A stretch of DNA of 34,689 nt from Flavobacteriales bacterium (GTDB lineage: Bacteria; Bacteroidota; Bacteroidia; Flavobacteriales_F; PHOS-HE28). The stretch is from assembly GCA_019638075.1 (NCBI GenBank), contig JAHBUM010000007.1, forward strand, positions 1 through 34,689, in the 5' to 3' direction. Below, piece by piece: positions 4,554 to 30,600 of the stretch. Position numbers and translations under genes: made by a program. Each line of letters begins with the position of its first letter. The first letter of the stretch is position 1. The notes under the pieces were generated by a model. That model had not been told where the DNA came from. It ran no database searches and saw nothing but the letters and a program-made list of their open reading frames with translations.

Positions 4554-4558
4554 GGCCG

Positions 4559-4566
4559 CGAAATTA
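4559..4566 (-). promoter_or_regulatory. -7 promoter element TAATTTCG for the minus-strand cyclase
   Basis: The minus strand reads TAATTTCGCGGCC and then TTG ACC, giving 5 nt between the box and the start codon. The same box-to-start geometry is seen at the other cyclase gene and at folP, clpS and 10639. Confidence 0.55.
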
Positions 4567-4599
4567 GAAGAGGCTTTCTCCGGCGATGTGAAGCCTGCA

Positions 4600-5022
4600 T
4601 CAAGCCTTCGTTGCGCCCATGTCACGCCTGCGGCGCAGTTCCAAGGGAAGCATCACGAGGTAGTACCCCTCCAGCAGCACCAGCCCGGCGATGAACAGCG
4701 CCTGCACGATGCCGTGGCCGCGCGCATCGTAGAAGAAGTCGCAGAGCATCCACGTACTGTTGGCGAGGATCCAGAGGATCACCGCGATGGCGTGGACCAG
4801 CTCGCGCCGGTCGGTGCGGCATTGCCACGCGATGAAGAAGGCCATCGCGATGGTCGGCGGCACCATCACAAGGCCGGTGATCCGGTACTCCATCAGCCAA
4901 GCCAGATCCTTCACCAGCCACAGCACGATGTGCAGGTTCTCGTTCACGCGGATGCCGGGCATCTGGATCATCAACAGCGGGTTTTGCGCAAAGGTGCGGG
5001 TGCGGACTTGAACGGTGTGCAT
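4600..5022 (-). CDS. Small integral membrane protein of unknown function
   Basis: 140 residues from ATG 5022 (MHTVQVRTRTFAQ) to TGA 4600-4602. After a short polar N-terminus there are three clear membrane segments: around ITGLVMVPPTIAMAFFIAW, AIAVILWILANSTWMLCDFF and VQALFIAGLVLLEGYYLVML, with a weaker hydrophobic stretch LHIVLWLVKDLAWLMEY before them. The C-terminus is basic (LELRRRRDMGATKA), suggesting a cytoplasmic end. The frame stays open far upstream, but that part is His-rich antisense to the 5044 gene and is not protein-like, so the start is placed at 5022. Its start codon is 21 bp from the divergent start at 5044, so the two promoters must overlap. I do not recognise a named family. 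It lies directly before the cyclase gene on the same strand. Confidence 0.7.
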   Translation of the reverse strand: MHTVQVRTRTFAQNPLLMIQMPGIRVNENLHIVLWLVKDLAWLMEYRITGLVMVPPTIAMAFFIAWQCRTDRRELVHAIAVILWILANSTWMLCDFFYDARGHGIVQALFIAGLVLLEGYYLVMLPLELRRRRDMGATKA

Positions 5023-12230: not shown

Positions 12231-13100
12231 TTGCCCTACACCCGCGTCTCCTTCCTCATCGCTCCGGTGGATCCGTGGCGCGACATCCTCATGATCGAAC
12301 TCGGCGAGCTCGGCTACGACAGCTTCGAGGAGACCACCGGCGGCTTGGACGCCTACATCGCGGACGGGCAATTCGACGTGAATGCGTTGCAGAAGCTCCT
12401 CACCCTGCGCGATCCGCACGTCACCGTGTCGTGGTCCGTGTCGAAGCTCGAGGCCCGCAACTGGAACGCCGAATGGGAAAGTAGTTTCCAGCCCGTTGAA
12501 GTGGGCAGGGAAGTACGCATCCGGGCCGAGCATCACCCCGCTGCCGAAGGCTTCACGCACGAGCTGGTCATCCATCCGCGCATGGCTTTCGGCACGGGGC
12601 ATCACGCCACCACGCGCATGGTGGTAAGGGGGATGCTTGGGCGGGAGGCCACTGGTGGTCGCTTCGCACATGGGTTGAAGGATACGCTCGTGTGCGATCT
12701 CGGCTGCGGTACCGCCGTGCTCGCCATCCTCGCCGAGCGCATGGGCGCGAAGGAGGTCCGTGCCATCGACATCGACGAGCAGGCGGTGCTCAACGCCCGC
12801 GAGAACGTGGAGCGCAACGGTTGTACCCGCATCACTGTGGAAAAGGGCGTCGCCACCGCGCTCGAAGGCCACGCCTACGACATTATTTTGGCCAACATCG
12901 AACGTAACACCCTGCTTGATGCCATGGGCCTGATGGCCGGTGCCATGCGGCCCGGCGCGGCGCTGTTCCTCAGCGGCTTCATCGTGGCCGATCGTCCGCT
13001 GCTCGCCGCTGCGGCGGAGGCGCATGGCCTGCTGCTGGCGGAGCACCTCGAAGAAGGGGAATGGTCCTTGCTCGGTTGTCGCAAACGCCCGGTCGAATGA
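12231..13100 (+). CDS. prmA: Ribosomal protein L11 methyltransferase
   Basis: 289 residues. PrmA transfers methyl groups from S-adenosylmethionine to amino groups of ribosomal protein L11. The N-terminal substrate-recognition domain (about 1-90) is followed by a class I methyltransferase fold: FGTGHHAT (120-127), DLGCGTAVLAIL (156-167, the SAM-binding glycine motif), AIDIDEQAV (178-186) and ILANIERN (219-226). TTG 12231 is taken as start because PYTRVSFLIAP aligns with the usual family N-terminus and no ATG is available upstream or within the first 20 codons. The stop overlaps the next start as ATGA (13097-13100), implying coupled translation with the large exported protein. Confidence 0.93.
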   Translation: MPYTRVSFLIAPVDPWRDILMIELGELGYDSFEETTGGLDAYIADGQFDVNALQKLLTLRDPHVTVSWSVSKLEARNWNAEWESSFQPVEVGREVRIRAEHHPAAEGFTHELVIHPRMAFGTGHHATTRMVVRGMLGREATGGRFAHGLKDTLVCDLGCGTAVLAILAERMGAKEVRAIDIDEQAVLNARENVERNGCTRITVEKGVATALEGHAYDIILANIERNTLLDAMGLMAGAMRPGAALFLSGFIVADRPLLAAAAEAHGLLLAEHLEEGEWSLLGCRKRPVE

Positions 13101-16100
13101 ATCTGCTCCGCTCTGTCTCCCGTGTGTTCCCGGTGATGCTGGCCGTCCTGTTCGTGCAGGGCCGCACCGCCGCGCAGACCAAGGTGTTCTCCAACGATCA
13201 GGCCCTGTTCCTGCAGGAGATGACCGCCTTCATCGTGGAGGCCGACAAGAAGGAGGGGCGCCCGTTCATGGAGCAGACCTTCGCGCCCGTATGGAACGGC
13301 CCGTACTACAGCGCCGCACAGCGCACACGCATCGTGGAGGTGGCCAACTTCATGCTGAAGAAGCGCTTCGATGCCTTCCCGCACTTCCGCGATTACCTCG
13401 GTGCCATCGCCGCCTTCCCCAACGGTGGCCGCAGCGGTGCCGAGTTCGATGCGTGGATGCAGGGCATGGACAAGTTGGTGCAGAGCGGGCGCAAGCAGAA
13501 CGTGGTGGCCTTCATCGCCACCTGCGCCAACCTGTTCAAGGACAACACCATGTTCTCCAGTGCCAGCACCAAGTGGCGCAGCCGGTCCTCCAAGTTCACC
13601 TTCGAGTTCGATTCCATCCCCAAGATCGTGTTCCCGAAGGCGGACCTCGTGTGTTCCGCCAAGGGCGACAGCGCCGTGATCCTCGCCACCAGCGGCACCT
13701 ACCTGCCCACGATGGAATTGTGGAAGGGCGTGGGTGGCAAGGTCACATGGGAGCGCGCGGGCCTGAAACCCACCGCCACCTTCGCCGAGTGGGCGCACCG
13801 GTACGAGATCAAGATGAAGAGCGCGGCCTTCGAGGTCGATTCCGTGCAGTTCAACGATCCGTACTTCGAGCGCACTTTGCTCGGAAAGATCAGCGACAAG
13901 GTGCTTGCCAACGTGGAGGAGAAGACCGCCAGCTACCCGCGCTTCGAGAGCTACGACCGGCGGATGAAGATCCGCGACATCGCCGAGGGCATCGACTTCG
14001 AGGGCGGCTTCACCATGCAGGGCGCCAAGTTGCAGGGCTATGGCACCAAGGAGGAACCGGCCTTCATGACCTTCTACCGCGACAAGCGCCCGTTCATCAT
14101 CACGCGCGGCCTCTTCTTCAGCATCGAGCCCGAGCGCATCACCAGCGATGATGTGGCCCTTCAGCTCCTGCTGGAGAAGGACTCCATCCATCACCCCAGT
14201 GTGAGCATGCGCTTCATCAAGGGGAAGAAGCAGCTTTCGCTGATCAAGAAGGACGAGGGGTTGGGCAAGGCACCGTTCTACGATACCTACCACCAGCTCG
14301 ACATGTACTTCGAGACCATCACGTGGAAACAGGGCGACCCGCTGCTGGAACTGGGCAACCTGCAGGGCAGCACACAGACCAAGGCGAGCTTCGAGAGCTT
14401 CGACTATTTCCAAGAGAAGCGCTACATGGCCATGCTCGGGATCGACGCGGTGCATCCGCTCGTGCGCCTGAACGACTTCAGCAAGCAGAACGAGGGCCGC
14501 TTCTACGCGCAGGAGTTGGCCGTATTCAGCAAGATGCAGAAGCAGGCCGTGGTGCCCATGCTGATCGACATGGCGAACAAGGGCTACCTGAAGTTCGATC
14601 CCGAGACGGAATGGGTGGAGACCACGCCGCGCCTGCGCCAGCACATCCTGAACAGCGCGGGCAGGCAGGACTACGACGTGCTGCAGTTCAACAGCAATGC
14701 CGAGGGTGCCAATGCCACGGTGAACCTGCTGAACTACGACCTCGCCATCATGGGTGTGGCGCGCATCGTGGTGAGCGATTCGCAGGATGTGAAGATCTTC
14801 CCCAGCGGCAGGCAGGTCACCGTGAAGAAGGGCCGTGACTTCACCTTCGGTGGAAGCGTGCAGGCGGGCAAGCTCCAGTTCTACGGCAAGGAATACTATT
14901 TCCACTACGACCCCTTCGTGATCGACCTGCTGAACGTGGACAGCGTGAGCTTCATGGCCGACAGCTTCGAGAAGAACGAGCAGGGCGAGCGCACACGGGT
15001 GCGTGTGAAGAACGTGCTGGAACAGGTGACCGGCACATTGGAGATCGACGAGCCCAGCAACAAGAACGGCCTGCAACAGGTGAAGGGGCCTGACGGCAAA
15101 ATGACCGCGCGCTACCCGCAGTTCCCCAAGTTCAACAGCACCAAGGAGAGCTACGTGTTCTACGACAAGCGATCCACGCAGCGCGGCGTGTACAAGCGAG
15201 ACAAGTTCTACTACCGCAGCGATCCCTTCATGCTGGACAGCTTGGACAATTTCACCAACGCGGGCCTCAACTTCACCGGCACGCTGGTGAGCGGCGGCAT
15301 CTTCCCGGACATCAAGGAGCCGCTTGGGTTGCAGCCCGATTACGCGCTCGGCTTCGTGCGCAAGACAGGCGATGGCGGCATGCCGCTCTACGGGAAGAAG
15401 GCGAAGTTCACCGACGAGATCACCCTCAACAGCCGCGGCCTGCAAGGGAAAGGGGAGATGGAATACCTCACCACCACCCTGCGATCGAAGGCGCTGGTGT
15501 TCTGCCCGGACAGCACCTTGGGCCGCGCCGATACGCTGTTCAACAAGTCCAGCACCACGGCAGGCAAAGTGCCTGATGTGCGCGGGGCGGATCTCTTCGT
15601 GCGGCTGGAACCGGCCAACGATGTGCTGCGCAGCGAGAAGCTGAAGAAGCCCATGGTGATGTACGGCGATCAAGCCTATCTCCACGGCCTCACGGACCTG
15701 AAGCCTTCGGGCATGACAGGCGCGGGCCTCGTGGATTTCAAGAACGCCACATTGTCGTCGAAGCTCTTCCAGTTCACCACCATGCAGGTGCATGCCGACA
15801 CTTCGGATTTCCGCCTGACCGAGGGTGACACCGCCAGCATCGCCTTCAAGACCGACAACGTGAACGCCACCGTGAAGCTCGACGAGCGCGTGGGTGAATT
15901 CGTGAGCAACGGCAGCGAGACCAAGGTGGAGTTCCCGGTGAACCAGTACATGTGCTTCATGGACCGCTTCAAGTGGTACATGGATCAGGGCGACATCGAA
16001 CTGGAAAGCGACCGCACCGCAGCGGTGGGCAACGAGGATCTCCAACTTTCCGGTTCCAACTTCATCAGCACCCGGCCCGATCAGGATTCGCTCAGCTTCA

Positions 16101-17578
16101 TGGCACCGAAAGCGCGGTACGATCTGAAGAAGCATCTGATCACCGCCAACGATGTGCAGTACATCCAAGTGGCCGATGCGCTCGTCACACCCGACAGCAT
16201 GCGCGTCCGTATACGCCGCAACGCCGTGCTGGATCCCCTGAACAACGCCGTGATCACCGCCAACTACGTCACCCGGCACCACCGCATCTACAACGCCACG
16301 GTGGACATCAAGGCAAGGCGCCGCTACACCGCGACGGGCGACATCGACTACGTGGACGAGGATCAGAAGAGCTTCAGGATCGCGCTCAACGAGATCAAGG
16401 TGGATACCGGCCTGCAGACCGTGGCACGCGGCCGCATCACCAAGGAGCAGGACTTCCGCCTGAGCCCGGCCTTCGACTTCTTCGGCGATGTATCGCTCAC
16501 CGCGAGCATCAAGGAGCTCACCTTCTCCGGCAGCACACGCATCCAGCACGGCTGCGAAGGGCTTGCGAAGAACTGGATGAAGTTCAGCGGGCCGATCGAT
16601 CCGTTGGAAGTGTTCATCCCCGTGGCCGATACCTTGTACGATGACCAGAGCGCGCTGATCGGTGCCGGTGTGCGCCTCACCGACGAGGATCCCTTCAAGG
16701 TATACGGCACCTTCCTGAGCCGCGTGGCCGACCCCAAGGACCGCGCTGTGATCGGTGCGCGCGGGCTGCTCTTCTACGACAAGGCGCGCAAGGAATACAT
16801 GATCTCCAACAAGGACAAGATCCGCAAGCGTGACATGCCCGGCGATCTCGTGAGCCTCGCCGTGGACAATTGCGTGATCCTCGGCGATGGCCGCATCAAC
16901 CACGGCGTGGACCTTGGCCGCATCAGCCTGACCAACGTGGGCGGTCTGCGTTACGAGACCGACGGCGCCAAGCTCACCACCGAGGAGGTGATGATCCACG
17001 ATTTCTTCTTCCACGATAATGCCTTGGAGCGGATGGCTGCGGAAATGCTGGCCTACCCGGACCTCAAGCCCGTGGACATCACCAAGACCTACTACGAGCG
17101 CATGCTCCGCGAAGTGCTCGGCTTGGAGCGATCCGACAAGCTCATCAGCGAGCTCAGCATCAAGGGCGAGATCAAGAAGCTGCCCGATGAACTCGTGAAG
17201 CCGCTGGTGCTCGCTGATGTGAAGATGCGTTGGGATGGCCCCGAGCAGAGCTGGGTCAGCGACGGCCCCATCGGCATCGCCAGCATCCTGAAGAAACCCA
17301 TCTACCGCTACGTGAAGGGCAAGGTGCATCTGGAACGCAAGCGCAGCGGCGACATCATGACGATCTACCTCGCCATGGACGACCAGACCTACTACTTCTT
17401 CCAATACACGCGGAACTACCTGTACGCGTACAGCAGTGATGCCACCTTCAACACCATGCTGAGCGAACTGAAGGATGACAAACGCAAGCTGGACGCCGAC
17501 AAGGGGCAGGCCGCGTACCAGTTCATCCTCACGAACAAGAAGAAGGTGGACGACTTCCGCGAACGATTCGGACTTTGA
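13097..17578 (+). CDS. Large exported protein of unknown function, beta-rich, 1493 residues
   Basis: The signal peptide (MNLLRSVSRVF … GRTAAQ) is followed by about 1465 residues with no further membrane segment, no T9SS tail and no recognised catalytic motif. The first 140 residues look helical. From about residue 160 onward the chain is dominated by alternating hydrophobic/polar strands with recurring phrases such as GGFTMQGAKLQGYG, FGGSVQAGKLQFYGKEYYF, SRGLQGKGEMEYLTTTLRSK, YDLKKHLITANDVQYIQVAD and ARRRYTATGDIDYVDEDQKS. Such phrases are reminiscent of the beta-taco repeats of OstA/LptA, LptD-N and AsmA-like proteins. This is a resemblance by eye, not a proven homology. It overlaps prmA by 4 bp (ATGA) and plsY starts 3 bp after its stop, so the three form one operon. 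Likely periplasmic. The very long antisense frame across it is a codon-bias shadow. Confidence 0.82.
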   Translation: MNLLRSVSRVFPVMLAVLFVQGRTAAQTKVFSNDQALFLQEMTAFIVEADKKEGRPFMEQTFAPVWNGPYYSAAQRTRIVEVANFMLKKRFDAFPHFRDYLGAIAAFPNGGRSGAEFDAWMQGMDKLVQSGRKQNVVAFIATCANLFKDNTMFSSASTKWRSRSSKFTFEFDSIPKIVFPKADLVCSAKGDSAVILATSGTYLPTMELWKGVGGKVTWERAGLKPTATFAEWAHRYEIKMKSAAFEVDSVQFNDPYFERTLLGKISDKVLANVEEKTASYPRFESYDRRMKIRDIAEGIDFEGGFTMQGAKLQGYGTKEEPAFMTFYRDKRPFIITRGLFFSIEPERITSDDVALQLLLEKDSIHHPSVSMRFIKGKKQLSLIKKDEGLGKAPFYDTYHQLDMYFETITWKQGDPLLELGNLQGSTQTKASFESFDYFQEKRYMAMLGIDAVHPLVRLNDFSKQNEGRFYAQELAVFSKMQKQAVVPMLIDMANKGYLKFDPETEWVETTPRLRQHILNSAGRQDYDVLQFNSNAEGANATVNLLNYDLAIMGVARIVVSDSQDVKIFPSGRQVTVKKGRDFTFGGSVQAGKLQFYGKEYYFHYDPFVIDLLNVDSVSFMADSFEKNEQGERTRVRVKNVLEQVTGTLEIDEPSNKNGLQQVKGPDGKMTARYPQFPKFNSTKESYVFYDKRSTQRGVYKRDKFYYRSDPFMLDSLDNFTNAGLNFTGTLVSGGIFPDIKEPLGLQPDYALGFVRKTGDGGMPLYGKKAKFTDEITLNSRGLQGKGEMEYLTTTLRSKALVFCPDSTLGRADTLFNKSSTTAGKVPDVRGADLFVRLEPANDVLRSEKLKKPMVMYGDQAYLHGLTDLKPSGMTGAGLVDFKNATLSSKLFQFTTMQVHADTSDFRLTEGDTASIAFKTDNVNATVKLDERVGEFVSNGSETKVEFPVNQYMCFMDRFKWYMDQGDIELESDRTAAVGNEDLQLSGSNFISTRPDQDSLSFMAPKARYDLKKHLITANDVQYIQVADALVTPDSMRVRIRRNAVLDPLNNAVITANYVTRHHRIYNATVDIKARRRYTATGDIDYVDEDQKSFRIALNEIKVDTGLQTVARGRITKEQDFRLSPAFDFFGDVSLTASIKELTFSGSTRIQHGCEGLAKNWMKFSGPIDPLEVFIPVADTLYDDQSALIGAGVRLTDEDPFKVYGTFLSRVADPKDRAVIGARGLLFYDKARKEYMISNKDKIRKRDMPGDLVSLAVDNCVILGDGRINHGVDLGRISLTNVGGLRYETDGAKLTTEEVMIHDFFFHDNALERMAAEMLAYPDLKPVDITKTYYERMLREVLGLERSDKLISELSIKGEIKKLPDELVKPLVLADVKMRWDGPEQSWVSDGPIGIASILKKPIYRYVKGKVHLERKRSGDIMTIYLAMDDQTYYFFQYTRNYLYAYSSDATFNTMLSELKDDKRKLDADKGQAAYQFILTNKKKVDDFRERFGL

Positions 17579-17581
17579 ACG

Positions 17582-18256
17582 ATGGACTTCCCTTGGGTGT
17601 ACGGCATAGCATCGGTACTGATCGCATACCTGATCGGCAGCATCCCCACCAGCGTGTGGTGGGGCAGGGCCTTCTTCGGGGTGGACGTGCGCGAGCATGG
17701 CAGCCGCAACGCCGGTGCCACCAACACCTTCCGGGTGCTGGGGCCGAAGGCGGGCGTGCCCGTGCTGCTCATCGACATCCTCAAGGGCTTCCTGCCCGTG
17801 CGGCTGCTGCCCAACTTCACCGACCTCGAACCCGACACTGCGCCGTGGATGTGGTTCCGCGTGGCATTGGTGGGCGCGGCGGTCATCGGCCACCTGTATC
17901 CGGTCTTCGCGGGCTTCAAGGGTGGCAAGGGTGTAGCCACGTCGCTGGGTGGTGTGCTGGCGGTACATCCGGGCGCGGCGGCCATCTGTGTGCTGGTCTT
18001 CGCGGTGGTGTTCCTGCTCTCGCGCTACGTCTCGCTGGGTTCGTTGTGCGCGGCGGTGGCCTTCCCGCTGGCGGTGGTCCTCGTGTACAAGGAGTTCAGC
18101 CCGGTGAAGATCGGCTTCGCCGTGGTGCTGTGCCTGCTCGTGTTCTACACGCACCGCGAGAACATCGGACGATTGCTGCGAGGGGAGGAGAACCGGATGT
18201 CGCTGGCTGGCGGAAGAACCCATCCCCATGAAACACAAGGCCGCGGCACGGCGTAA
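17582..18256 (+). CDS. plsY: Acyl-phosphate:glycerol-3-phosphate acyltransferase
   Basis: 224 residues, slightly long for the family because of a polar C-terminal tail (RMSLAGGRTHPHETQGRGTA). PlsY is an inner-membrane enzyme that moves an acyl group from acyl phosphate to glycerol 3-phosphate, giving lysophosphatidic acid, the first step of phospholipid synthesis. Family motifs are clear: IGSIPTSVWWGR (18-29), GSRNAGATNTFRVLG (40-54), GHLYPVFAGFKGGKGVATS (103-121) and HRENIGRLLRGEE near the end. Several membrane helices fill the rest. ATG 17582 starts 3 bp after the preceding stop, and the following gene starts 18 bp after this one ends, so it is the middle of a four-gene operon. Confidence 0.96.
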   Translation: MDFPWVYGIASVLIAYLIGSIPTSVWWGRAFFGVDVREHGSRNAGATNTFRVLGPKAGVPVLLIDILKGFLPVRLLPNFTDLEPDTAPWMWFRVALVGAAVIGHLYPVFAGFKGGKGVATSLGGVLAVHPGAAAICVLVFAVVFLLSRYVSLGSLCAAVAFPLAVVLVYKEFSPVKIGFAVVLCLLVFYTHRENIGRLLRGEENRMSLAGGRTHPHETQGRGTA

Positions 18257-18274: not shown

Positions 18275-21200
18275 ATGACCCGCACAACGGGCATACTATT
18301 CTGCATGCTGTGTACCCTGTTCGCGAAAGCGCAGGGCGATCAACAGGTGCGCGCCAAGGCCGACGGGCTCTTCAATGAGAAGAGCTACGTGGAGACCCTG
18401 CCGCTCTACAGCCAGCTCGTGAGCCTTGCCCCGGCGGATCGTGTGCTCAACTACAAGTTCGGCACCTGCCTGCTCTTCGGCGGCACCGACAAGGACAAGG
18501 CCATCGGCCACCTCAAGTTCGCCACGCAGGATCCCTCCATACCGCCCGATGCGTGGTACTGGCTGGGCCGCGCCTACCACCTCAGCTACCAGTTCAAGGA
18601 TGCCCTCACCGCCTATCAACGCTATCAGGGAACCGGCAGCAAGAAGGAGCTGGAAGGCTTCCCCATCGCCGCGCTCGACAAGCAGTGCCGCAACGGCATG
18701 AACCTGCTGAGCAACCTCAAGGAGATCACCGTACACAGCAGGGTGGAGGCCGATGACACCGAGTTCTTCCGCTTCTACGAACTGGGCGACATCGGTGGGA
18801 AGATCGTGGTGCTGCCCGAGGAACTGAAGACGCCGCTGGACAAGAAGAGCAAACGCCGCACGCTGGTGTACCTCCCGGAGAAGGGCGGCCCCATCTACTA
18901 CGCCAGCTACGGAAAGGACGGCAAGACCGGCCTCGACATCTACCGTACCGAACTGCTCTCCAACGGCACCTTCGCCACGCCGGTGAAGCTGGCCGGTTAT
19001 GTGAACACCGATCAGGACGAGGATTACGCTTTCCTGCACCCCGACGGCCGCAACTTCTACTTCAGCAGCAAGGGCCACAACAGCATGGGCGGCTACGATG
19101 TGTTCCGCTCGGCCTACGACAAGGTGTCCGAGACCTTCGGCCCGCCCGAGAACCTCGATTTCGCCGTGAACACGCCCGACGACGACGTGTTCTATATGAC
19201 CGATGCCGAGAACAAACAGGCATGCTTCGCCAGCGCGCGGGGCAGCAAGCAGGGCAAGTTGCACGTGTACCGCGTGGCCACTGCACAGGTGCCCGTGGTG
19301 GTCACCGTCATGAAGGGTACCTACGCCAGCGCCTTCGATCAGAACGACCGCAAGGCGCACATCATGGTGGAGGATGCCGTCACGCGCGAGCGTGTCGCCA
19401 ATGTGCGCACGGACATCAACGGCTCGTACGTGCTCGCACTGCCGCGCAGCGGGAAGTTCCGCTACCTCGTGGAATGCGGCCCCACTGGCCGCACGCACAC
19501 CGGCGTGGTGGATGTGCCGCGCGCCACCAGCGCACGTGCCTTCCGGCAGGAACTGGAGCTCACCCGCAAGGGCGATCAGGAGGAACTCGTCATCCGCAAC
19601 TACTTCGACACGCCGCTGGAAGAGGACATGATCGCCCTGATGATGGACGAGATCAAGCGTCGTGCGCGCCTCGATGTCACCGGCGATCGTCCTGCGGCCA
19701 CCGAACAGCCCGCCCCGGAACCCGCTGGCGACGTGCTTACACAGGCCGGGTTCTCCGGTGATGTGACGGAAGCGAAGGCGGTGCAACTGGCGAAGGACGA
19801 CGCCCGTGGACTGGAGGATCTTACCAAGGCGCTGGACGGCCAGAGCGCGGCGGCGTACATCATCGCGAAGGATGCCGCCACTGCTGCGGAACAGGCGGCA
19901 AGGGAAGCCACCGTGGCGGCGGAGAAAGCGAACGCCGCGACCGACGAAGCCACGCGCAATGCGCTGATGAAGGAGGCCGCCCAGCTCCGCCAGCAGTCGC
20001 GCACGGTCAATCTCCGCGCCCGTGCTGCCTATCATGCGGCACAGGGTATCGATGCGGAACGTATGGCGGTGCAGCAGCGCGCGAACACGGCAGCCCGGCT
20101 CGCCACCGATCTGGAGCAGGCGGTAGCCACCGGAAAGCAGGAGACCACGCTGGCCCATCTGCGCACGCTGAAGGAACGCCTCGATACCAAGGCAGGGCCG
20201 GAAGGGGATGTCCCGCTGGCCGAGCGCACACGCCGCACCCTCGCCGAACAGGAGAAGGAGGCTGCCCGCCGCATGAGCATGGCCACGGCCAAGCGCGCAG
20301 AGGAGACCGAACTGGCCGACCGCATCGAACGGGCGAAGCGCGAGCGTGATGCCGCGAAGAACAAGGCCCGCAAGGATGAACTGTCGCGCACCATCGCCGA
20401 GCAGGAGCAGCAACTGGCCTACCTCCATGCCGAGGTGGAGGGCGCCTTCAACACGGCGCGCGAGCACGAGATGGGCACTGCCGTGATGCGCGGACAGCAC
20501 TCGCTCACCCACCACCTGTCCACACAGCCCGCTTCGGGTGGAAGCAAGGCGCCCACGAAGGAGGAGATCGCCGGTCTGGGCCAGCGCATCGCAGGCAACG
20601 ATTCCCGCATCGCATCCATTCCGGTTGATGCCCGCTTCGACGGCAACTTCGCCGAACCTGCATCCGCCGTGGAAGCCCGTTCCTTCAACTGGCAGCTTGC
20701 CGGGCCGGACGCGGTGCTGGCCGCAGGCGCGGTGCCGACGCAGAGCATGGCGCGCGATGGCCGCAACGATGCCGTACACGCCGATGGCCGCACCGCCACC
20801 ATCCCTGCCCGTTCCGCTTCAGGGGAGGTGCGCAGTGCCGAGGTGCCCGATGTGCCGGTGAGCACGGGCGATGAACTCGTCAACGCGGGCCGCACGATCG
20901 GAGAGGTGCGTGAGGATGCTGCGGTCAATGATCCATCTTCTGCTGGCACTGCTTCCGGTGGGCAGGCGTCAGGTCGTGCGCAGAACAGCGATGCACATGC
21001 GGCAGGCACCACAGAGGGAACATCTGCCACCGATGTCGCCGCAGCACAACAACGGATCCAGCCGGTCGGTCAGGGAAACTCGGGTACGGCTTCGGGATCG
21101 ACACAGCACAACGAAGCGCGTACGGTGGGAGAGGGTGCTTCAACAGGCACCACGGCAACCGATGTGGCAACTTCCCGGCAACAAGGGAACGCGGTGGATG

Positions 21201-24200
21201 GTCAACAGACCACAGGCAGCACCACACGGCAGAACCCGAATGCACATGATCTCGCTTCGGCTGGAATTTCCACCGCAGCCGGGACCGATGCTGTGGATGC
21301 ACAGGGTGAACGGCACAGTGCATCATCCACGGATGCAGGCGAGGCGGCACAGTCCGCAACGGCTGATGCTTCGTCCAGTGGCGACACCTTCCTGCTCGAG
21401 AACGAGAAGGCCGAACTGCAGCAGGCCATCGCTGCCGAGCGCAACGCCGCCCGCCGCGATGAACTGCGCGCCCGCCTCAGCGTGGTGGAGCAACGCCTGA
21501 GCGCCGCCGCCACACAAGCCGACGAGGCTGAGGCAGCGGAAAGCGAGATGAGCATCGACGGGGTGGACATGCAGCGCACGCCGATCACCTTCTTCCCCAC
21601 GACGAAGGACAACGACATCATCACCCTCGTGTACCCGAACTACGAGAGCGACAAACGCAAGCTGGGTTCGCTGTCCGATCCGGTGGCGCGTGCCGAAGGG
21701 CTCAGTGGTCTTGAACTGATGCTCGCCGACAGCCTGCGCGGTGAAATGGTGCGTCAAGCCGCCGTGCTGGAGCTTGCACCGCAGCAGGGCGCGAACGTGT
21801 TGCCGAAGATCGAGCGCCTGCGCCTCATGCGGCAGACACGCATACAGGAGGCTGATCGCATCACGCGCGAAGCGGCCGCAGCCGGGCAACTGGCCGAAGA
21901 GACACCGCGCGAGGGCCTATCACGCACGGCCTCCCGTGCAACCTACCCCGCCGGGCAGAACCCCGTTACGGACCGCTTCATCTTCATCCCGGACGATCGT
22001 CAGGAAGTGTACACCAGCAAGGTGGAACATCGTTCGCCCAAAGTGGCCGAGGCCGTGGCCGCCAAGGATGCCGATCTGGAGCGTATGCGCAGCCTCGACG
22101 ACCGCATCGATGCCATCGAGGTCACCTTGGAGGGCCTGCCACGCAAGGAGTACGAGAAGAAACGCCGCGAGGCCGACAAGCTGATCGACGAGCGCATGAT
22201 CCTCCGCACCGAGCTCGGCCAGCGATCGGCTTTCCTGACCAAGGAGGAGTGGCGCACCGCTGCGGACAGCCTGAAGGGGATCGACAAGCGCGTGACTGCG
22301 CTCGGGCTGGCTCCGAACGAAAGCCTCCTGCTCATGTCACAAGGCATGCGCACCAACGCCACCACGCGCTATGCCGAGGCGGAGGCCATGCGGAAGAGGG
22401 CCGACCGCAGCGAGGACATCATGCTGCGCGACAGCCTGCTGCGCTCGGCCTACGGCATGGAACTCGAAGCCCTGCACGAGATGGACCGCTCCATCACCGT
22501 GAAGACCTACCTGCTCGGCGACCAGTTCAAGCGCGGCGAGTCACTGGCGTATGATGAAGTGGCCCGCCGTGTGCTGGGCATCACCGATGAGCCGGTGCCC
22601 GCCATCGCTTCGTCCATCCCCACAGGCCGTGCGGATGCTGCGGATGGCCGTGTGGCGGTGACAGGAGAGGAGGCGCGTGTTGCAACCACCGACCCCGATG
22701 TGCAGGATGGCGCGACCGTCACTGCGATACAGGAACGACCCACACCCGTGGATCGTTCCGAGACTGTGGACGGACAACAAGCGACGAACACCGCAGGTGA
22801 AGGCAGCGGCACGATGGATCCGCGCGTGACCGATGCTGCGCCGAACACATCGGAAGCGGATGCCGCCGCCATCCGCCGTGCGCGTGAAGAAGCCATCGCC
22901 TTGGCGGAGCGCACCGAAGGCACGCTGCCACACTCGGCCCGCGCACCGGCACAGCTCTACGAGAACTACCTGACCGGGGAAACGGTCATGCTGAAGGTGG
23001 AGGCATTGGATCCCGCGCTCGACAGCGATCTGTTGTCCATCCGCAAGGAGCAGGCCGCCCGCGAAAGCGCCGAACTGGAGCAGCGCTCCCTTGCGCTGAC
23101 CGATCGCGCAGCGGCCATGGAGGACAGCGCCACCACTGCGCGCAAGCGGGACCGCGAACGCTTGGAACTGCTCGCCATCCGCACACGCGCCGAGGCCGAT
23201 TCCTTGCACGACCACTCACTGGTGCGGGCCGAGGATGCCCGCGCATTGGAACTGCAGCAGCGCGACGCCGCTCAAGCGAAGCAGTTGCGCGATCGCTTGG
23301 TGAAGTACTACTACCTCTCCGGCGAGGAACAGACGGCCGTGCTGGACGATCAGGACTTGAGCCGCTACTTCCAGATGAAGGCCCGCGCGCTTGAACAACT
23401 GGATGCCGCCGCCGATGCCGAAGCCTCCGCCCGCGCCAACCGCCAGCTTGGCGAAGTGCTGCGCAAGGAGGCCGATGCCGTGAGGGCAGGGGAGGCCGGA
23501 GGGACCGCCCGCCGCGAAGTGCTGTACGGCCGCGCCGAGATGCTTTCCGCACGTGCGGATTCATTGAGCAACATCGCCGCCCGCCTGCGTGGTGCCGCCA
23601 ACATCAACGAAAGTCAGGCCGGGGTGATCCTGCAAGGCATGCCTGCGGACCGCTCCACCGAGTGGATGGCCATGGAGATGCGCACGCGCCGCACCGAGCT
23701 CATGCTGGCGCAGGCCGAACAACGCACGCCGGTGGTGGCCAGCCAAGAACAGGGCAGGGGCGGCTCCGTGGCGGCCAACGAGCGTGAGCGTTCCACTCCT
23801 GCAGGCAGTGCGCCTCCCACCCGTAACATCGCACCGCCCTTCGGCACCGACCAGCGCAGCGAACGCCCGGCTGTGGCACGCCCCATCGCGGAGATCCCCG
23901 CCGCCAACGCGCCGGAAATGGTCTTCCCCGAAGTGCTCGTCAACGACATGTTCGAGTTCCGCCCCACGGGTGAGCGCAAGCCCGCCGCCATCGCCATGGA
24001 TGCGCGCCTGCCTTCGGGCATCGTCTTCAAGGTGCAGATCGGCGCCTTCCGTTCGCCCATCTCCGAAGAGAACTTCAGCGACATGACCCCGGTGATGGGC
24101 GAGCACACACCGAACGGGTTCATCCGCTACACGGCAGGCCTCTTCACCGGGTTCCAGCAGGCGGCCCGCGCCAAGGACCGTGTGCGCGACCGTGGCTACC

Positions 24201-24958
24201 GCGATGCCTTCGTGGTGGCCTACCGCGATGGCGTGCGCATCCCCTTGGGTGAAGCCATGCGCGAGGCCCGCGCTGCGGAACAGGGTGCCATCGCTGCGAA
24301 CGCCCCGGCAGGGGCGCCGCCCGCCACAGCTACGGGAGGCGCTTCCGGCGCAGGCCGCACCGCTTCCACGGTGGCATCCACACCGCCAACGGCCACGGCA
24401 TCCGGTGTGGCGCGCGAGCCGGGGAACACCGTGCTGGAACCGGTGCGCACCAGCACGGGTGGCACGGAACCATCCGCCGTGCTGATCCAGCGTCCCCTCG
24501 ATACACCGGCCGCTCCGGTACCGGCTCCTGCCGTCACCACCGAACAGATCCTCGCGAAATACCCGGCCACCGCCGAAGCCATCGTGGGATCCTTCGTGCC
24601 CGAAGCAGGCGCGGCGGATTACTACAACGTGCCCGGTGCCGCACCGGCCGCGCAGGTGGAGACCATCAAGGGCCTCTTCTACACGGTGCAGGTGGGCGTG
24701 TACAGCAAGCCTGTGGCGCTGGACAAGCTCTTCAACCTCACGCAGCTCAACAGCGAGCGCACCGAAACGGCCAAGATCCGCTACACCACCGGCCGCTACA
24801 CCGATCCCGAGCAGGCGCGCGTGCGCAAGGACCAGTCCGTGGCCCTCGGCGTGAAGGACGCCTTCGTGACCGCCTACCTCAACGGCAAGCGTATCCCCAT
24901 GCAGGAAGCGGCGGCGCTGTTGCAGCAGTTCGGTACGGAGATCTTGGCCCGGCCCTGA
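18275..24958 (+). CDS. Giant envelope protein: TPR, beta-propeller, regulatory-like domain, long coiled coils and two SPOR domains
   Basis: 2227 residues. Signal peptide MTRTTGILFCMLCTLFAKAQG. Order of parts: TPR-like helices (about 24-126); a PD40/WD40-type propeller (about 170-335, with HPDGRNFYFSSKGHNSMGGY and DDDVFYMTDAENKQACFASA); a CarboxypepD_reg-like unit (about 358-415, VRTDINGSYVLALPRSGKFR); an Ala/Glu/Arg-rich coiled coil (about 529-730); a Ser/Thr/Ala/Gly-rich low-complexity linker (about 830-1035); more coiled coil to about 1830; then two SPOR-like repeats (about 1916-1990 and 2133-2210), each with (K/T)VQ(I/V)G near its start, IRYT and DAFV(V/T)AY. SPOR domains bind peptidoglycan lacking stem peptides. 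The first three domains match the order known from the T9SS protein PorE, but the OmpA-like end is replaced. ATG 18275 is preferred to GTG 18272. It follows plsY by 18 bp. Confidence 0.88.
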   Translation: MTRTTGILFCMLCTLFAKAQGDQQVRAKADGLFNEKSYVETLPLYSQLVSLAPADRVLNYKFGTCLLFGGTDKDKAIGHLKFATQDPSIPPDAWYWLGRAYHLSYQFKDALTAYQRYQGTGSKKELEGFPIAALDKQCRNGMNLLSNLKEITVHSRVEADDTEFFRFYELGDIGGKIVVLPEELKTPLDKKSKRRTLVYLPEKGGPIYYASYGKDGKTGLDIYRTELLSNGTFATPVKLAGYVNTDQDEDYAFLHPDGRNFYFSSKGHNSMGGYDVFRSAYDKVSETFGPPENLDFAVNTPDDDVFYMTDAENKQACFASARGSKQGKLHVYRVATAQVPVVVTVMKGTYASAFDQNDRKAHIMVEDAVTRERVANVRTDINGSYVLALPRSGKFRYLVECGPTGRTHTGVVDVPRATSARAFRQELELTRKGDQEELVIRNYFDTPLEEDMIALMMDEIKRRARLDVTGDRPAATEQPAPEPAGDVLTQAGFSGDVTEAKAVQLAKDDARGLEDLTKALDGQSAAAYIIAKDAATAAEQAAREATVAAEKANAATDEATRNALMKEAAQLRQQSRTVNLRARAAYHAAQGIDAERMAVQQRANTAARLATDLEQAVATGKQETTLAHLRTLKERLDTKAGPEGDVPLAERTRRTLAEQEKEAARRMSMATAKRAEETELADRIERAKRERDAAKNKARKDELSRTIAEQEQQLAYLHAEVEGAFNTAREHEMGTAVMRGQHSLTHHLSTQPASGGSKAPTKEEIAGLGQRIAGNDSRIASIPVDARFDGNFAEPASAVEARSFNWQLAGPDAVLAAGAVPTQSMARDGRNDAVHADGRTATIPARSASGEVRSAEVPDVPVSTGDELVNAGRTIGEVREDAAVNDPSSAGTASGGQASGRAQNSDAHAAGTTEGTSATDVAAAQQRIQPVGQGNSGTASGSTQHNEARTVGEGASTGTTATDVATSRQQGNAVDGQQTTGSTTRQNPNAHDLASAGISTAAGTDAVDAQGERHSASSTDAGEAAQSATADASSSGDTFLLENEKAELQQAIAAERNAARRDELRARLSVVEQRLSAAATQADEAEAAESEMSIDGVDMQRTPITFFPTTKDNDIITLVYPNYESDKRKLGSLSDPVARAEGLSGLELMLADSLRGEMVRQAAVLELAPQQGANVLPKIERLRLMRQTRIQEADRITREAAAAGQLAEETPREGLSRTASRATYPAGQNPVTDRFIFIPDDRQEVYTSKVEHRSPKVAEAVAAKDADLERMRSLDDRIDAIEVTLEGLPRKEYEKKRREADKLIDERMILRTELGQRSAFLTKEEWRTAADSLKGIDKRVTALGLAPNESLLLMSQGMRTNATTRYAEAEAMRKRADRSEDIMLRDSLLRSAYGMELEALHEMDRSITVKTYLLGDQFKRGESLAYDEVARRVLGITDEPVPAIASSIPTGRADAADGRVAVTGEEARVATTDPDVQDGATVTAIQERPTPVDRSETVDGQQATNTAGEGSGTMDPRVTDAAPNTSEADAAAIRRAREEAIALAERTEGTLPHSARAPAQLYENYLTGETVMLKVEALDPALDSDLLSIRKEQAARESAELEQRSLALTDRAAAMEDSATTARKRDRERLELLAIRTRAEADSLHDHSLVRAEDARALELQQRDAAQAKQLRDRLVKYYYLSGEEQTAVLDDQDLSRYFQMKARALEQLDAAADAEASARANRQLGEVLRKEADAVRAGEAGGTARREVLYGRAEMLSARADSLSNIAARLRGAANINESQAGVILQGMPADRSTEWMAMEMRTRRTELMLAQAEQRTPVVASQEQGRGGSVAANERERSTPAGSAPPTRNIAPPFGTDQRSERPAVARPIAEIPAANAPEMVFPEVLVNDMFEFRPTGERKPAAIAMDARLPSGIVFKVQIGAFRSPISEENFSDMTPVMGEHTPNGFIRYTAGLFTGFQQAARAKDRVRDRGYRDAFVVAYRDGVRIPLGEAMREARAAEQGAIAANAPAGAPPATATGGASGAGRTASTVASTPPTATASGVAREPGNTVLEPVRTSTGGTEPSAVLIQRPLDTPAAPVPAPAVTTEQILAKYPATAEAIVGSFVPEAGAADYYNVPGAAPAAQVETIKGLFYTVQVGVYSKPVALDKLFNLTQLNSERTETAKIRYTTGRYTDPEQARVRKDQSVALGVKDAFVTAYLNGKRIPMQEAAALLQQFGTEILARP

Positions 24959-24970
24959 TGATCCGCAAGA

Positions 24971-25038
24971 GCAGGGGCAGCTGGCAGGAGCAATGCCTCC
25001 TGCACTTGCCCCTGCCAACTGCCCCTGCATCACCAAGG
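24971..25038. repeat. Heptamer hairpin element F (different arm sequence, same core words)
   Basis: The left arm 24971-24987 (GCAGGGGCAGCTGGCAG) and right arm 25012-25028 pair at 16 of 17. The units are GGGGCAG and CTGGCAG, unrelated in sequence to TGACAAC. AATGCCT (24992-24998) lies in the loop, and CACCAAGG (25031-25038) lies just outside the right arm. It starts 12 nt after the stop of the giant gene and ends 14 nt before the clpS promoter box. Confidence 0.75.
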
Positions 25039-25052
25039 TGACCTCACCGCCG

Positions 25053-25060
25053 TACTTTCG
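25053..25060 (+). promoter_or_regulatory. -7 promoter element TACTTTCG for clpS
   Basis: TACTTTCG ends 4 nt before ATG 25065. The 11 bases CCGTACTTTCG are identical to those at the cyclase promoter (1190-1200). Confidence 0.6.
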
Positions 25061-25064
25061 TCCC

Positions 25065-25352
25065 ATGCCCATGCGCGCGTCGCTCACCCCCGAGGAACTC
25101 CTCCTCGAAGAGGTCATGCTGGAACTCGGCCCGGTCCGTGAGATCGTGGTACACAACGATGACGTGAACACCTTCGACCATGTGATCGCTTCGCTGGTGG
25201 AGGTCTGCGACCACGAGCCCATACAGGCCGAGCAATGCGCATGGATCGTACACAACAACGGCAAATGCAGCGTGAAGCGCGGCACCTACGACCAGTTGGA
25301 GGCGCGCTGCCATGCACTTCAACAACGCGGCCTGTCGGCCGTCATCCAATGA
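25065..25352 (+). CDS. clpS: ATP-dependent Clp protease adaptor ClpS
   Basis: 95 residues, normal for the family. ClpS binds proteins with N-terminal degron residues and hands them to the ClpA/ClpC unfoldase in the cytoplasm. The degron-pocket residues are visible: VVHNDDVNTFDHV (Asn31, Asp32) and WIVHNNGK (His63). ATG 25065 is chosen because it follows the promoter box by 4 nt and the region upstream is repeat element F; ATG 25071 is also possible. The stop overlaps the start of the M48 protease gene as ATGA (25349-25352), so the two are probably translated together. Confidence 0.95.
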   Translation: MPMRASLTPEELLLEEVMLELGPVREIVVHNDDVNTFDHVIASLVEVCDHEPIQAEQCAWIVHNNGKCSVKRGTYDQLEARCHALQQRGLSAVIQ

Positions 25353-26152
25353 ACATGGGAACCAAGGGCCTGCTGCTGCTGGCCGGTATCGTCGTATTGG
25401 AAGCCTGCTCCAAGGTGCCTGTCACCGGGCGCCGCCAGTTCAACGTGGTGGGCACCTCGCAGATCGCCTCCATGGTGAACACGCAGTATCAGGAGACGTT
25501 GCAGAGCAGCAGTATCCTGCCTGCGAGCGATCCGCGCACGCAGATGGTGCGCAGTTGCGGCCAGCGGATCGCCACCGCTGTGGAAACCTTCCTCAACAAC
25601 AACGGCATGCAGGAGCGCGTGGCCGAATTCAACTGGGAGTTCAACGTGGCCGACGACCCCACGGTGAACGCCTGGTGCATGCCCGGCGGCAAGGTGCTGT
25701 TCTACACCGGCATCCTGCCCATCACCAAGGACGAGACCGGCTTGGCCGTGGTGATGGGGCACGAGGTGGCCCACGCCGTGGCCCGCCATGGCAACGAGCG
25801 CATGAGCCAAGGCATCCTCGCCCAAGGCGCAGGCATGACGCTGGACATCCTCACCAGCGAGAACCCCGGGCTGGCGCGCGACCTGTTGATGCAAAGCGTC
25901 GGCATCGGCTCGCAGTTGGGCATGCTGGCATACAGCCGCTCGCACGAAACGGAAGCCGACAAGATGGGCCTGATCTTCATGGCGATGGCCGGATATGACC
26001 CGCGCGAGGCTCCCGCGTTCTGGGAGCGCATGAGCGCAGGCTCCGGCGGACAGGCACCGCCCGAACTGCTGAGCACGCACCCCAGCGACCAGCGCCGAAT
26101 CAGCGACCTCAACGCCTACATGCCCGAGGCGCTGAAGTACTATAAGCCGTAG
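25349..26152 (+). CDS. M48 family metalloprotease, lipoprotein
   Basis: 267 residues. A lipoprotein signal peptide ends at LEAC, with Cys20 as the predicted lipid attachment site, so the enzyme is membrane-anchored on the periplasmic side, probably at the outer membrane. The zinc motif HEVAH (His138, Glu139, His142) is intact and the third ligand is Glu200 in SHETEADKMG. The motif AWCMPGGKVLFYTGIL before it and LLSTHPSDQRRI near the end are typical of the BepA/LoiP/Oma1-like branch of M48, which handles misassembled envelope proteins; that role is inferred. ATG 25349 overlaps the clpS stop; ATG 25355 is an alternative two codons later. Heptamer element C starts 3 nt after the stop. Confidence 0.92.
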   Translation: MNMGTKGLLLLAGIVVLEACSKVPVTGRRQFNVVGTSQIASMVNTQYQETLQSSSILPASDPRTQMVRSCGQRIATAVETFLNNNGMQERVAEFNWEFNVADDPTVNAWCMPGGKVLFYTGILPITKDETGLAVVMGHEVAHAVARHGNERMSQGILAQGAGMTLDILTSENPGLARDLLMQSVGIGSQLGMLAYSRSHETEADKMGLIFMAMAGYDPREAPAFWERMSAGSGGQAPPELLSTHPSDQRRISDLNAYMPEALKYYKP

Positions 26153-26293: not shown

Positions 26294-27025
26294 ATGGACC
26301 TCCTCCCAACGCTTCGCATGGTCGCGCGGTCCGTATGGCTGTGCATGGTGCGTTGGTCGCGGCGGGTGGTGGTGTGGCTTGGGAGCCTTGCCCTGCTTCT
26401 CATCGTGCTGGCCTGCACCCGAGTCCCCTTCGATATGCACCGCTGGCTGGGGAGCGGGGCCGGTGAATGCCGCACGGCACCGGAGGCCATCGTGGTGCTG
26501 GGTGGAAGCGGCATGCCTTCCGGGCCGGAGCTGTTGCGGTTGCACCATGCGGCGGCCCTTGCCGTGGCGGTGCCCGCCGCGCCGGTGTACATCATGCACC
26601 CCGATACCGGCGCCACCATGCGCCAGATGGTGGCCGAACTGGTGCTGCGGGGCGTGCAGGTGGCCCGCATCAGGCCCGTGCCGCTGGGTGAGAACACCCG
26701 CGAACAGGCGCTGGTCTTCGCACGCCAGTGGAAGGCAGGGCAGGGGAGTGTGGCCGTGGTCACCGCGCCGGAGAACATGTACCGCAGTGTGCATGCCTTC
26801 CGCAAGGCCGGTGTGGCGCAGGTGTGCGGTGCCCCCGCTTGGGACCATGCCATGCCGCACGACTTCGCCTATCGTCACAAGGCCATCGGGGGCAAGGCAT
26901 GGGCACCCGACGTCTCCGGCAACATCGGCCTGCGTTATACCTTCTGGAACTACCTGAAACTGGAGATCACCTGCCTGCGCGAGTTCGCGGCCATCGCGTA
27001 TTACCGGGTGAACGGCTGGATCTGA
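26294..27025 (+). CDS. DUF218 family (SanA/ElyC/YdcF-like) membrane-anchored protein
   Basis: 243 residues. One N-terminal membrane segment (about 24-42, VVVWLGSLALLLIVLA) anchors a periplasmic DUF218 domain. Family motifs are visible: AIVVLGGSG (65-73), GENTREQALVFA (132-143), VAVVTAPENMYRSVHAFRKA (153-172) and a C-terminal helix YLKLEITCLREFAAIAYYRV. In other bacteria SanA, ElyC and YdcF are linked to envelope integrity or the lipid carrier of cell-wall synthesis, but their chemistry is not settled. The start ATG 26294 lies 8 nt after hairpin element C, with no clear promoter box between, so the gene may depend on read-through or on a promoter inside the repeat. Confidence 0.86.
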   Translation: MDLLPTLRMVARSVWLCMVRWSRRVVVWLGSLALLLIVLACTRVPFDMHRWLGSGAGECRTAPEAIVVLGGSGMPSGPELLRLHHAAALAVAVPAAPVYIMHPDTGATMRQMVAELVLRGVQVARIRPVPLGENTREQALVFARQWKAGQGSVAVVTAPENMYRSVHAFRKAGVAQVCGAPAWDHAMPHDFAYRHKAIGGKAWAPDVSGNIGLRYTFWNYLKLEITCLREFAAIAYYRVNGWI

Positions 27026-27313: not shown

Positions 27314-27621
27314 CGGGCCTGATCCGTCATCCCGGGCTGTACCTGACGAAGGCCGGGGCCGGTGTCGCGCAAGTGCTGCCGATGGCACTGGCATTCAGGC
27401 GATCCGGCTCAAGGCCGGTATGATGATGCGTGTCGGGCTGCCACCTCCGCAGGCACCTTCCAGACTTGCCCCGGTTAGGGACTTGTAGTGCGCTGACGCG
27501 CATACGTGGGCATCCATCGGCTCTCATTTTCCGTTGGTCGAAACAATGTGCTGGATGTCATCGTAATAAGGCCCGTTCCATTTTCACACGAAATGGGAAC
27601 GAGGACCAAACTCTCCGATCG
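27314..27621. other. Spacer between the tRNA terminator and the T9SS cargo gene, with a leader hairpin
   Basis: No gene is supported here. CGTTCCATTT (27574-27583) pairs with AAATGGGAACG (27591-27601), with one bulge, around TCACACG. This hairpin ends 20 nt before the cargo start codon, so it could act in the mRNA leader. No clear TAnnTTnG box is seen. The in-frame open stretch upstream of 27622 is not protein-like. Confidence 0.4.
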
Positions 27622-30600
27622 ATGACATCAACACACACACACGAACGTCCCTGCCGAGGGCTTTTCTTCATGCTATCGGTGCTGGCCCTGCTGGCCTGCG
27701 CACTTCCGGCAGCCGCGCAGGTATCCACGTTCTACAGCTTCGCGCAAAGCGCAGGCTCGCTGAGCGTGATCACCGGAGGTACCCGGCTGAACACCACGAA
27801 CAACTCGTTCGACGATCAGGTGTATACGGTAACCATCCCGGAGTTCTTCTACGATGGGAGCTACTACACCACGATGTACGTGAGCGCGAACGGCTTCATC
27901 ACCTTCGGCGCGGCCCCTGCGGGTAACAACTACACCCCGCTCAGTTCCAACGCGGGATATGCCGGGGCCATCTCGCCCTTCGGCACCAATATCCGCCAGA
28001 CCGGCAGCGGTACCCGCGAGGTACGTTGGCAGCAGGTGGGCAGCGAGATCGTGGTGCAGTGGGCCGGCGCGCGCCGTTACGACTCAGGCACCAGCGAATC
28101 CTTCACCGTTCAGGCCCGCCTGAACACCGTTACGGGTGTGATCCGGTTCGTGTACAGCGCGGTGACCAGCTTGGCTACCGGAACGCATGACCAGCCCCAG
28201 GTGGGCCTGCGCGGACCCAACAACACCTTCGCCACCAATGTGAACAACCGGATGGTGACCAACGCCACCGGCGGCGGGGCCAACAACTGGGCCACCAGCT
28301 TGGTGGGCACGGCCAACAACTCCACCAGCCGTTTCACCAATTCCAATCCGGCGAAGAGTCCCACGGCGGGGCTTACCTATACCTGGACCCCCGTCTGCCT
28401 GTCACCCGCAGCCAATGCCACGGTAAGCACGAACTGCGCTACGAACAGCTACACCATCACGGTGGATGTGACCAGCCTGGGCTCCGCAGCGAACGTCACC
28501 ATTCAGTCGCCCATCGGTACCAACGTGCATACAGCGGTGGGAACGGGCACCTATTCCATCGGCCCCATCAATGTGGGTACATCACGTACGGTGCGGGTGG
28601 TGCATACCGGGAACAGCGCGTGTAACATCGATCTGGGTACGCTCAGCAGCGACATCAGCGCTTGTGTCACCAACGGGAACTGCCTCAGCAACCCCTACCT
28701 GGCCATCCCCGACAACGGGTGCGGATCGAACAATGCGGCCAATGCCGGCATCCAGATCGCCGGTCTCAACAACAGCCTGGGCAGCAGTGTTGATCTGCTG
28801 AGCGTGGACCTCATCATGGCCCATACCAACCGCGGCGATCTCCGGGTCACGCTCACCTCGCCCACGGGCCAGACCAGGAACCTCATCCTGAACCGTGGAG
28901 GCACGGGCGACAACTTCGGCAACCCGGGCAGCTGTCCCACTTCCACGTTCACCCTTAGCGACGACGCGGCAAACGCGGTCTCCGCCAGTGGAACGGGCAA
29001 CAACCCAACCGGGTCGTGGCGGCCTGAACAGACCTTGGCGGGGTTCACCGGCGATCCCAATGGCACGTGGACGCTGAGCATTTGCGACAATAGCAACGGT
29101 ACCACCGGTACGCTCCGGTACGCGAAGCTCAATTTCTGCGACCGCCCGGTGATCACGGCCACAAGCAGCAACTCGCCCTCCTGTACGGCGGACCAGCTCA
29201 CGCTGGGTGTCACCGCATCGGGTACGGGCCTCACTTATGCCTGGACCGGCACCGGCACCTTCAGCCCGAACGCCGCCAGCGCGAACGTGAGCGTGAGCGG
29301 GGCCGCTACGGGGACTTACTCAGTAACCGTAAGCAACGGCTGCACCAACGTGGTCGCCGATATTCCCGTGGTGGTGAACCCCAGCCCTACGGATGCCACG
29401 GCGAACAGCAGCGCGGCATCGGTGTGCTCCGATGCCAACACGGTGGACCTCACTGGCAGTGGCATTTCCCCGGGCACCATCCTGTCGCAGAACTTCAACG
29501 CGGGCATCGCGCCCTGGACCACCACGAACACGAGCACGGGCGGAACACCCGCCAACGCCGCATGGACGGCCCGGGCGAACAACTACACCTTCAACGCCTA
29601 TGATGGCAACGTGACCTTCAGCAGCAACGATGCCACGCAGTTCGTGTTGAGCAACTCCGATGCGCAGGGCAGTGGCACCACCGCCACCACCTTGGTATCG
29701 CCCTCCTTCAGCACCGTGGGCTATACGACCGCCACGTTGTCCTACTACCATTACTACCGCTACAACTCCGGCGCCGATGACCGTGCCCGTGTGGAAGTAT
29801 CCGTCAACGGTGGTGGGTGGACCACGTTGGAGACATACTCCAGTGTGCAGGGTACGCCCACCGGCTTCGTGCAGGGAACGGTCAGCCTTAACGGCTACCT
29901 GGGCCAGGCCAACCTGCAGGTGCGCTTCCGCTACAACGCCTCCTGGGATTACTTCTGGGCCATCGATAACGTGGAGGTCACCGGCACGTCCGCCGCACAT
30001 TCCACCTTCGCATGGACCAGCACGCCTTCGGGCTTCACGTCGAGCCTGCAGAACCCCACCGGTGTGGCGGTGACGCAGAACACCACCTACACCCTCACGG
30101 TGACGGCCCCCAACGGTTGCACCGCCACGGCGAACACGGCCGTGACCCATACCCAGGCGCCTGCGGCCACCATCGCCTACACCGGTTCGCCCTATTGTGC
30201 TGTTGCCGGGAACGTGAACGTGGCGCATACCGGCACCACGGGAGGAACCTATACCAGCACGGCGGGCCTCTCCATCAATGCCAGCACAGGCGTCATAGAT
30301 GCCGCGGCCAGCACGAACGGCACCTACACCGTAACGTACACGGTGGCCGCTTCAGGCCCCTGCGCACAGTTCCAGACCACGGCCAGTGTGACCATCACCG
30401 ACTGCATCTACTACAGCCGCAACACCGGCACGCTTGCCGACCCCATCTGGAGCCTTACGCCCAACGGCGCCGCAGGCTATGCCGTTTGGAATGATGCCAC
30501 CGCCATGGTGGTGCAGACCGGCGATGTGGTCACCAACGGCAGTAACGAACAGGTGGGCGGCATCACCGTGCAGAGCGGTGGCAGCCTCGTGCTCGGTGCC

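Follow-up and report, generated by a model that had tools for sequence, protein, structure and literature searches.

A 2227-residue envelope protein of a Flavobacteriales bacterium joins a PorE-like head to a double-SPOR tail

Introduction

The first 34,689 nucleotides of contig JAHBUM010000007.1 (hereafter the window), from a draft genome of a Flavobacteriales bacterium (assembly GCA_019638075.1; 3.3 Mb in 380 contigs, 93% complete), carry a gene for a protein of 2227 amino acids, here called the giant, in which a PorE-like N-terminal head is joined by a very long linker to two SPOR domains. It belongs to an uncharacterised family present in many environmental Bacteroidota and, judging by its N-terminal sequence, is probably an exported envelope protein. 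Tentatively, and at somewhat less than an even chance, we favour the reading that the giant is a peptidoglycan-tethered scaffold, placing or steadying an outer-membrane assembly apparatus (for lipid, lipopolysaccharide (LPS) or outer-membrane proteins) on the cell wall. A first-pass annotation of the window had described the same layout and suggested that the protein may be a scaffold of the type IX secretion system (T9SS) or of motility. The observation is confirmed here, and the interpretation in part: a PorE-like layout, a SPOR tail and a long linker are all present, whereas the specific T9SS or motility role finds no support.

Results

A single long gene under purifying selection

A single open frame at 18275-24958 (+) encodes 2227 amino acids and a stop codon, with coding-like GC content at the three codon positions (0.69/0.50/0.79). 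Orthologues across Bacteroidia are likewise encoded by one long frame; they measure about 1600-2600 amino acids, the usual range being about 1800-2500. Comparison of congeners gave dN/dS values of about 0.12-0.30 for the head, 0.22-0.42 for the linker and 0.29 for the tail, and therefore the full length of the protein is under purifying selection; the coordinates, strand and length first annotated are correct. Both ends are well conserved and the region between them poorly so, identity with other families reaching 47% in the head and 45% in the first SPOR domain while the linker evolves fast, which is the pattern expected of a tether.

The SPOR tail

The tail contains SPOR domain 1 (24008-24253 (+), residues 1912-1993), its best-conserved domain, and SPOR domain 2 (24662-24910 (+), residues 2130-2212). 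The Pfam SPOR model (PF05036), sought directly in the window copy, gave no match; significant matches came through homologues, 15 of 22 family members matching with a best value of 2e-12, and through a SPOR profile derived from family members. The latter detected the two domains of the window copy, itself one of the training rows of that profile, with E-values of about 1e-34 and 1e-33 respectively. By the same profile most relatives have three SPOR domains (71 of 91 scored sequences), against two in the window copy. The only match of the C-terminal profile in the PDB was the SPOR domain of CwlC (1x60), whose basic residue K47 aligns with R1951 of the giant. The conserved SPOR glutamine contacts N-acetylmuramic acid and N-acetylglucosamine in RlpA (PMC6895207); Q1921 and Q2139 stand at this position, and each domain also keeps the basic residue that accompanies it in PF05036 (R1951 and R2169). 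SPOR domains bind denuded glycan, which is enriched at septa (PMC6895207), and with these residues in place those of the giant would be expected to bind glycan strands stripped of their peptides. The two SPOR domains of the first-pass annotation thus stand. So does its view that they occupy the place of an OmpA domain, of which no match was found in the giant, and given the glycan-contact positions a peptidoglycan-anchored scaffold appears the natural reading.

The head and the linker

The N-terminus begins with a predicted signal peptide (MTRTTGILFCMLCTLFAKAQ; 18275-18334 (+)) that fits the known Sec-type pattern; no lipobox was seen by eye in the first 25 residues. An AlphaFold model of residues 1-480 (pLDDT 87.5, pTM 0.82) places TPR helices up to about residue 146, PD40-type strands to about 340 and a sandwich resembling the carboxypeptidase-regulatory-like domain (CRD) to about 447. 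Foldseek backs the TPR domain (18338-18712 (+), residues 22-146; TMt 0.7-0.8 to TPR structures) and little else; the top whole-chain matches, pneumolysin and TIE, are unrelated (TM 0.12-0.17), and we take the TPR matches alone as meaningful. Direct Pfam comparison of the window copy gave a weak TPR_2 match, a weak PD40 match (0.0011) and nothing stronger. PD40 was found by Pfam in 19 of the 22 family members scanned, which include 20 from other families and one congener (A1). Together with the modelled strands and a partial match to the NCBIfam PorE model, this defines a propeller-like block at 18719-19294 (+) (residues 149-340). The CRD-like beta sandwich (19304-19615 (+), residues 344-447) follows from the model and from CarboxypepD_reg matches in single homologues only. 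The order TPR, beta-propeller, CRD that had been read from the sequence is therefore borne out by the model and by Pfam matches in homologues, although the propeller-like block is shorter than the five blades of PorE.

Between head and tail lies a low-complexity linker of about 1450 residues, rich in Ala, Glu and Arg, mostly helix-favouring and poorly conserved (19625-23986 (+)). Its great length, put at about 1400 residues originally, is clear; the coiled coil also proposed is suggested by composition and by profile matches to coiled-coil proteins. When the full alignment was run as a profile against the PDB, most matches were to such proteins (SMC6, tropomyosin), and the search was uninformative except for TPR and SPOR. 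Stretched out as one continuous helix, about 1450 residues would reach far beyond the periplasm, and so the linker must double back, follow the wall or be disordered.

Relationship to PorE

Porphyromonas gingivalis PorE is a lipoprotein composed of TPR, a five-bladed propeller, CRD and OmpA_C (PMC7192894). Against the NCBIfam PorE model (NF052230) the giant scores 76 bits, over residues 205-398 only and with a cut-off of 600; against the CHU_0125-type model (NF053607) it scores 75 bits in the PD40 region, where the cut-off is 620. As the first-pass annotation had suggested, we looked for an ordinary PorE in the same genome, and one is present: a protein of 660 amino acids (L143) with an OmpA domain (6e-14), which matches positions 6-645 of the 648-position PorE model with 502 bits, the best match, yet still below the strict cut-off. 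Hence the giant is no substitute for PorE. When the heads were placed in a tree, a long branch with support of 1.00 set the giants apart from every OmpA-ended protein. On these grounds, and given the lack of a lipobox, we rejected the view of the giant as PorE with a new tail. The genome also encodes a TPR-PD40-CRD protein of 530 amino acids without any wall-binding domain (L146:2425-4014, G000:C368); in the tree its head takes a position intermediate between giants and PorE, and its gene sits downstream of an open reading frame ending in a type B C-terminal domain (CTD)-like sequence.

Operon and conserved neighbours

In the window, five genes lie on the same strand with the giant in third place: a gene for a protein of 1505 amino acids and plsY precede it, and clpS and an M48 metallopeptidase gene follow. 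The first three gaps measure 3, 18 and 34 bp, and the last two genes overlap. We surveyed neighbours at 91 loci, a few of which are duplicates from the same genome. The M48 gene (25349-26152 (+); Pfam Peptidase_M48), whose product has a lipoprotein signal with a lipobox read from the sequence, is the most conserved neighbour, lying downstream on the same strand in 44 loci. The 1505-residue protein is encoded upstream in 38; plsY, the glycerol-3-phosphate acyltransferase gene (17582-18256 (+); Pfam G3P_acyltransf 3e-57), is upstream in 30, and clpS, for the ATP-dependent Clp protease adaptor (24993-25352 (+); Pfam ClpS), is downstream in 12. Neither T9SS genes nor division genes appeared among the conserved neighbours in this survey.

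The 1505-residue protein (13061-17578 (+), the true start probably being 13097) is predicted to be secreted and belongs to an unnamed family with 33-44% identity across families; searches of Pfam, NCBIfam and PDB sequences gave no match. Modelling of residues 311-1500 with 28 homologues (AlphaFold pLDDT 86.5, pTM 0.49) yielded a nearly all-beta structure with a short MarR-like helical insert. Against LptC (6mit_C) and LptA (2r1a), Foldseek gave this model a probability of 1.0 and a TMt of 0.52-0.57, and LptD entries were among the best E-values. The model thus predicts a beta-taco fold like that of LptA, LptC and LptD, which we treat as a lead and not as proof. In a class sample of 149 Bacteroidia genomes, in which the giant was scored by a strong C-terminal match, the family occurs in 129: all 59 genomes with the giant, in 25 of which it is encoded directly upstream on the same strand, and 70 of the other 90 (Fisher p 3e-5, relatedness not corrected for).

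Other features of the window

Just downstream of the operon is a gene for a DUF218 (SanA/YdcF-like) membrane protein (26294-27025 (+)). The nearby cargo first annotated is a T9SS type A protein of 1855 amino acids (27430-32997 (+)) with a P-domain, SprB repeats and PKD domains. An open frame of 1787 codons antisense to the 1505-residue gene and plsY (12875-18238 (-)) is a mirror frame of GC-rich codons and not a likely gene. At 1209-2246 (+) and 3501-4625 (-), on opposite strands, two proteins that look similar by eye have class III adenylate cyclase-like ends.

Distribution and co-occurrence with T9SS

The 59 genomes with a giant orthologue amount to roughly two fifths of the class sample, in which SprA was found in 143 genomes and PorE-type proteins in 142. 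A named scan placed carriers among Flavobacteriales outside the classic families, Fluviicola, Vicingaceae and unclassified Bacteroidetes metagenome-assembled genomes. Co-occurrence with T9SS genes, the check first suggested, holds for 58 of the 59 carriers. With SprA present in nearly every genome of the class, this is uninformative, and we rejected it as evidence for a T9SS role. The sole giant-positive genome without SprA, and so the one case that could have told against a T9SS link, is G101, where the absence is probably an assembly gap since its congeners have the gene. Conversely, 85 of the 143 SprA-positive genomes lack the giant, and in a phylum-wide sample of 248 genomes, weighted to complete genomes, SprA was found in 191 and the giant in 2. 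T9SS is thus usual without the giant and does not need it.

Discussion

The conserved operon, with a beta-taco-like protein, plsY, clpS and an M48 peptidase, favours a role in outer-membrane assembly over one in T9SS. Under the reading that we tentatively prefer, the giant would be exported to the periplasm, where its TPR, PD40 and CRD-like head would bind a partner near the outer membrane, while its SPOR domains, two here and three in most relatives, would hold peptide-stripped glycan, that is, septal or remodelled wall, and the long linker would act as a flexible tether. The partner most likely lies within the conserved operon and would first of all be the 1505-residue protein, PlsY and the M48 lipoprotein protease being other putative members of envelope assembly; in Escherichia coli, the M48 protease BepA is described as acting on LptD (PMC8423444). 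Several observations weigh against this. The 1505-residue family is also present in 70 genomes of the class in which no giant was detected, the two genes lie apart in about half of the giant-positive genomes, and plsY and clpS may be bystanders. The Foldseek E-values for LptC and LptA are weak (0.02-0.06), whole-model TM-scores are low, and an ordinary OstA_2/LptA-type protein is encoded in the genome as well, so that the 1505-residue protein is not the sole LptA.

A T9SS-associated anchor is an unlikely alternative, though one to be taken seriously. Here the giant would be a paralogue of PorE: its head would bind a PorP/SprF-like barrel together with the type B CTD cargo of that barrel, and SPOR in place of OmpA would fix both to the wall. 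The order of domains is that of PorE, PorE binds PorP (PMC9143113), Flavobacterium johnsoniae has operons of a PorE homologue, type B cargo and an SprF-like protein (PMC12618676), and SprA accompanies nearly every giant. In one lineage (L063-L067) a protein with a type B CTD-like end and PorP/SprF are encoded upstream of the giant; a gene on the opposite strand intervenes between PorP and the giant, and we rejected a common operon there. Against the anchor stand the patchy occurrence of the giant relative to SprA, the ordinary PorE-family protein in its own genome, the distinct clade of its head and the lack of any T9SS gene as a conserved neighbour class-wide. The T9SS link is weak.

About as doubtful is a division or cell-separation factor, with SPOR domains targeting the septum and a head that recruits or regulates envelope constriction proteins, in a role like that of FtsN, DamX or Tol-Pal. 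It would agree with two to three SPOR domains per protein and with the septal enrichment of denuded glycan (PMC6895207), but the conserved neighbours include no division gene, the head resembles neither TolB nor FtsN, and the giant is absent from most of the phylum and so is not a core division factor. Least probable is a general spacer between outer membrane and wall, an OmpA/Pal/Lpp-like tether without a dedicated client and one of several SPOR-tailed envelope proteins of the lineage: related SPOR-bearing open reading frames are common in the class and the same genome encodes a beta-barrel, TSP3 and SPOR protein of OmpA-like layout (L148:4173-6281) beside one of 504 amino acids with a SPOR-like end, but the giant has neither lipid anchor nor barrel, and so needs a specific outer-membrane partner, and its operon link to the 1505-residue protein is specific. 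These two adjacent proteins with SPOR-like C-termini, one of them the 702-residue predicted outer-membrane barrel protein, were seen at L148:2637-6281 (G000:C354) and L151, next to a bacterial alpha-2-macroglobulin; a congener shows this arrangement too.

Returning to the outer-membrane assembly scaffold, a more specific proposal, which we consider improbable as it stands, is a hitherto undescribed envelope-assembly module of many Bacteroidia comprising the beta-taco protein of about 1500 residues, PlsY, the M48 protease and the giant, which would pin the bridge to denuded glycan. The beta-taco protein would then be a possible lipid or LPS bridge, and outer-membrane supply would be tied to sites of wall remodelling; this protein may prove more interesting than the giant itself. 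The giant family shows that such scaffolds can swap their wall-binding end between OmpA, for peptide-bearing wall, and SPOR, for denuded glycan, and such a swap would shift the scaffold's site of action in the cell. Together with its conserved partner, the giant offers a testable entry into lipid supply to the Bacteroidota outer membrane. Literature searches on SPOR with T9SS or Bacteroidetes returned nothing relevant, and no paper on a PorE-like head with a SPOR tail.

Among known systems, PorE is comparable in its TPR-propeller-CRD order and C-terminal peptidoglycan-binding domain; the giant differs in having SPOR for OmpA_C, a long linker, no lipobox, a shorter propeller block and a clade of its own. 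The CHU_0125-type OmpA-like outer-membrane integrity protein has a similar PD40 region and ends in OmpA; in this genome, two separate OmpA-ended proteins fit its model (NF053607) best, also below the cut-off. In OutB/GspB-type secretion scaffolds the concept is comparable, an envelope machine being held by a scaffold with its anchor in the wall (PMC9239104), but sequence and client are unrelated. With CwlC, FtsN, RlpA and DamX the giant shares the VQxGAF motif of the SPOR fold and the glutamine and basic residue for denuded glycan, but whereas these proteins attach a single SPOR domain (a tandem pair in CwlC) to an enzyme or membrane anchor, the giant family has two to three at the end of a protein of about 1600-2600 residues with a TPR-propeller head.

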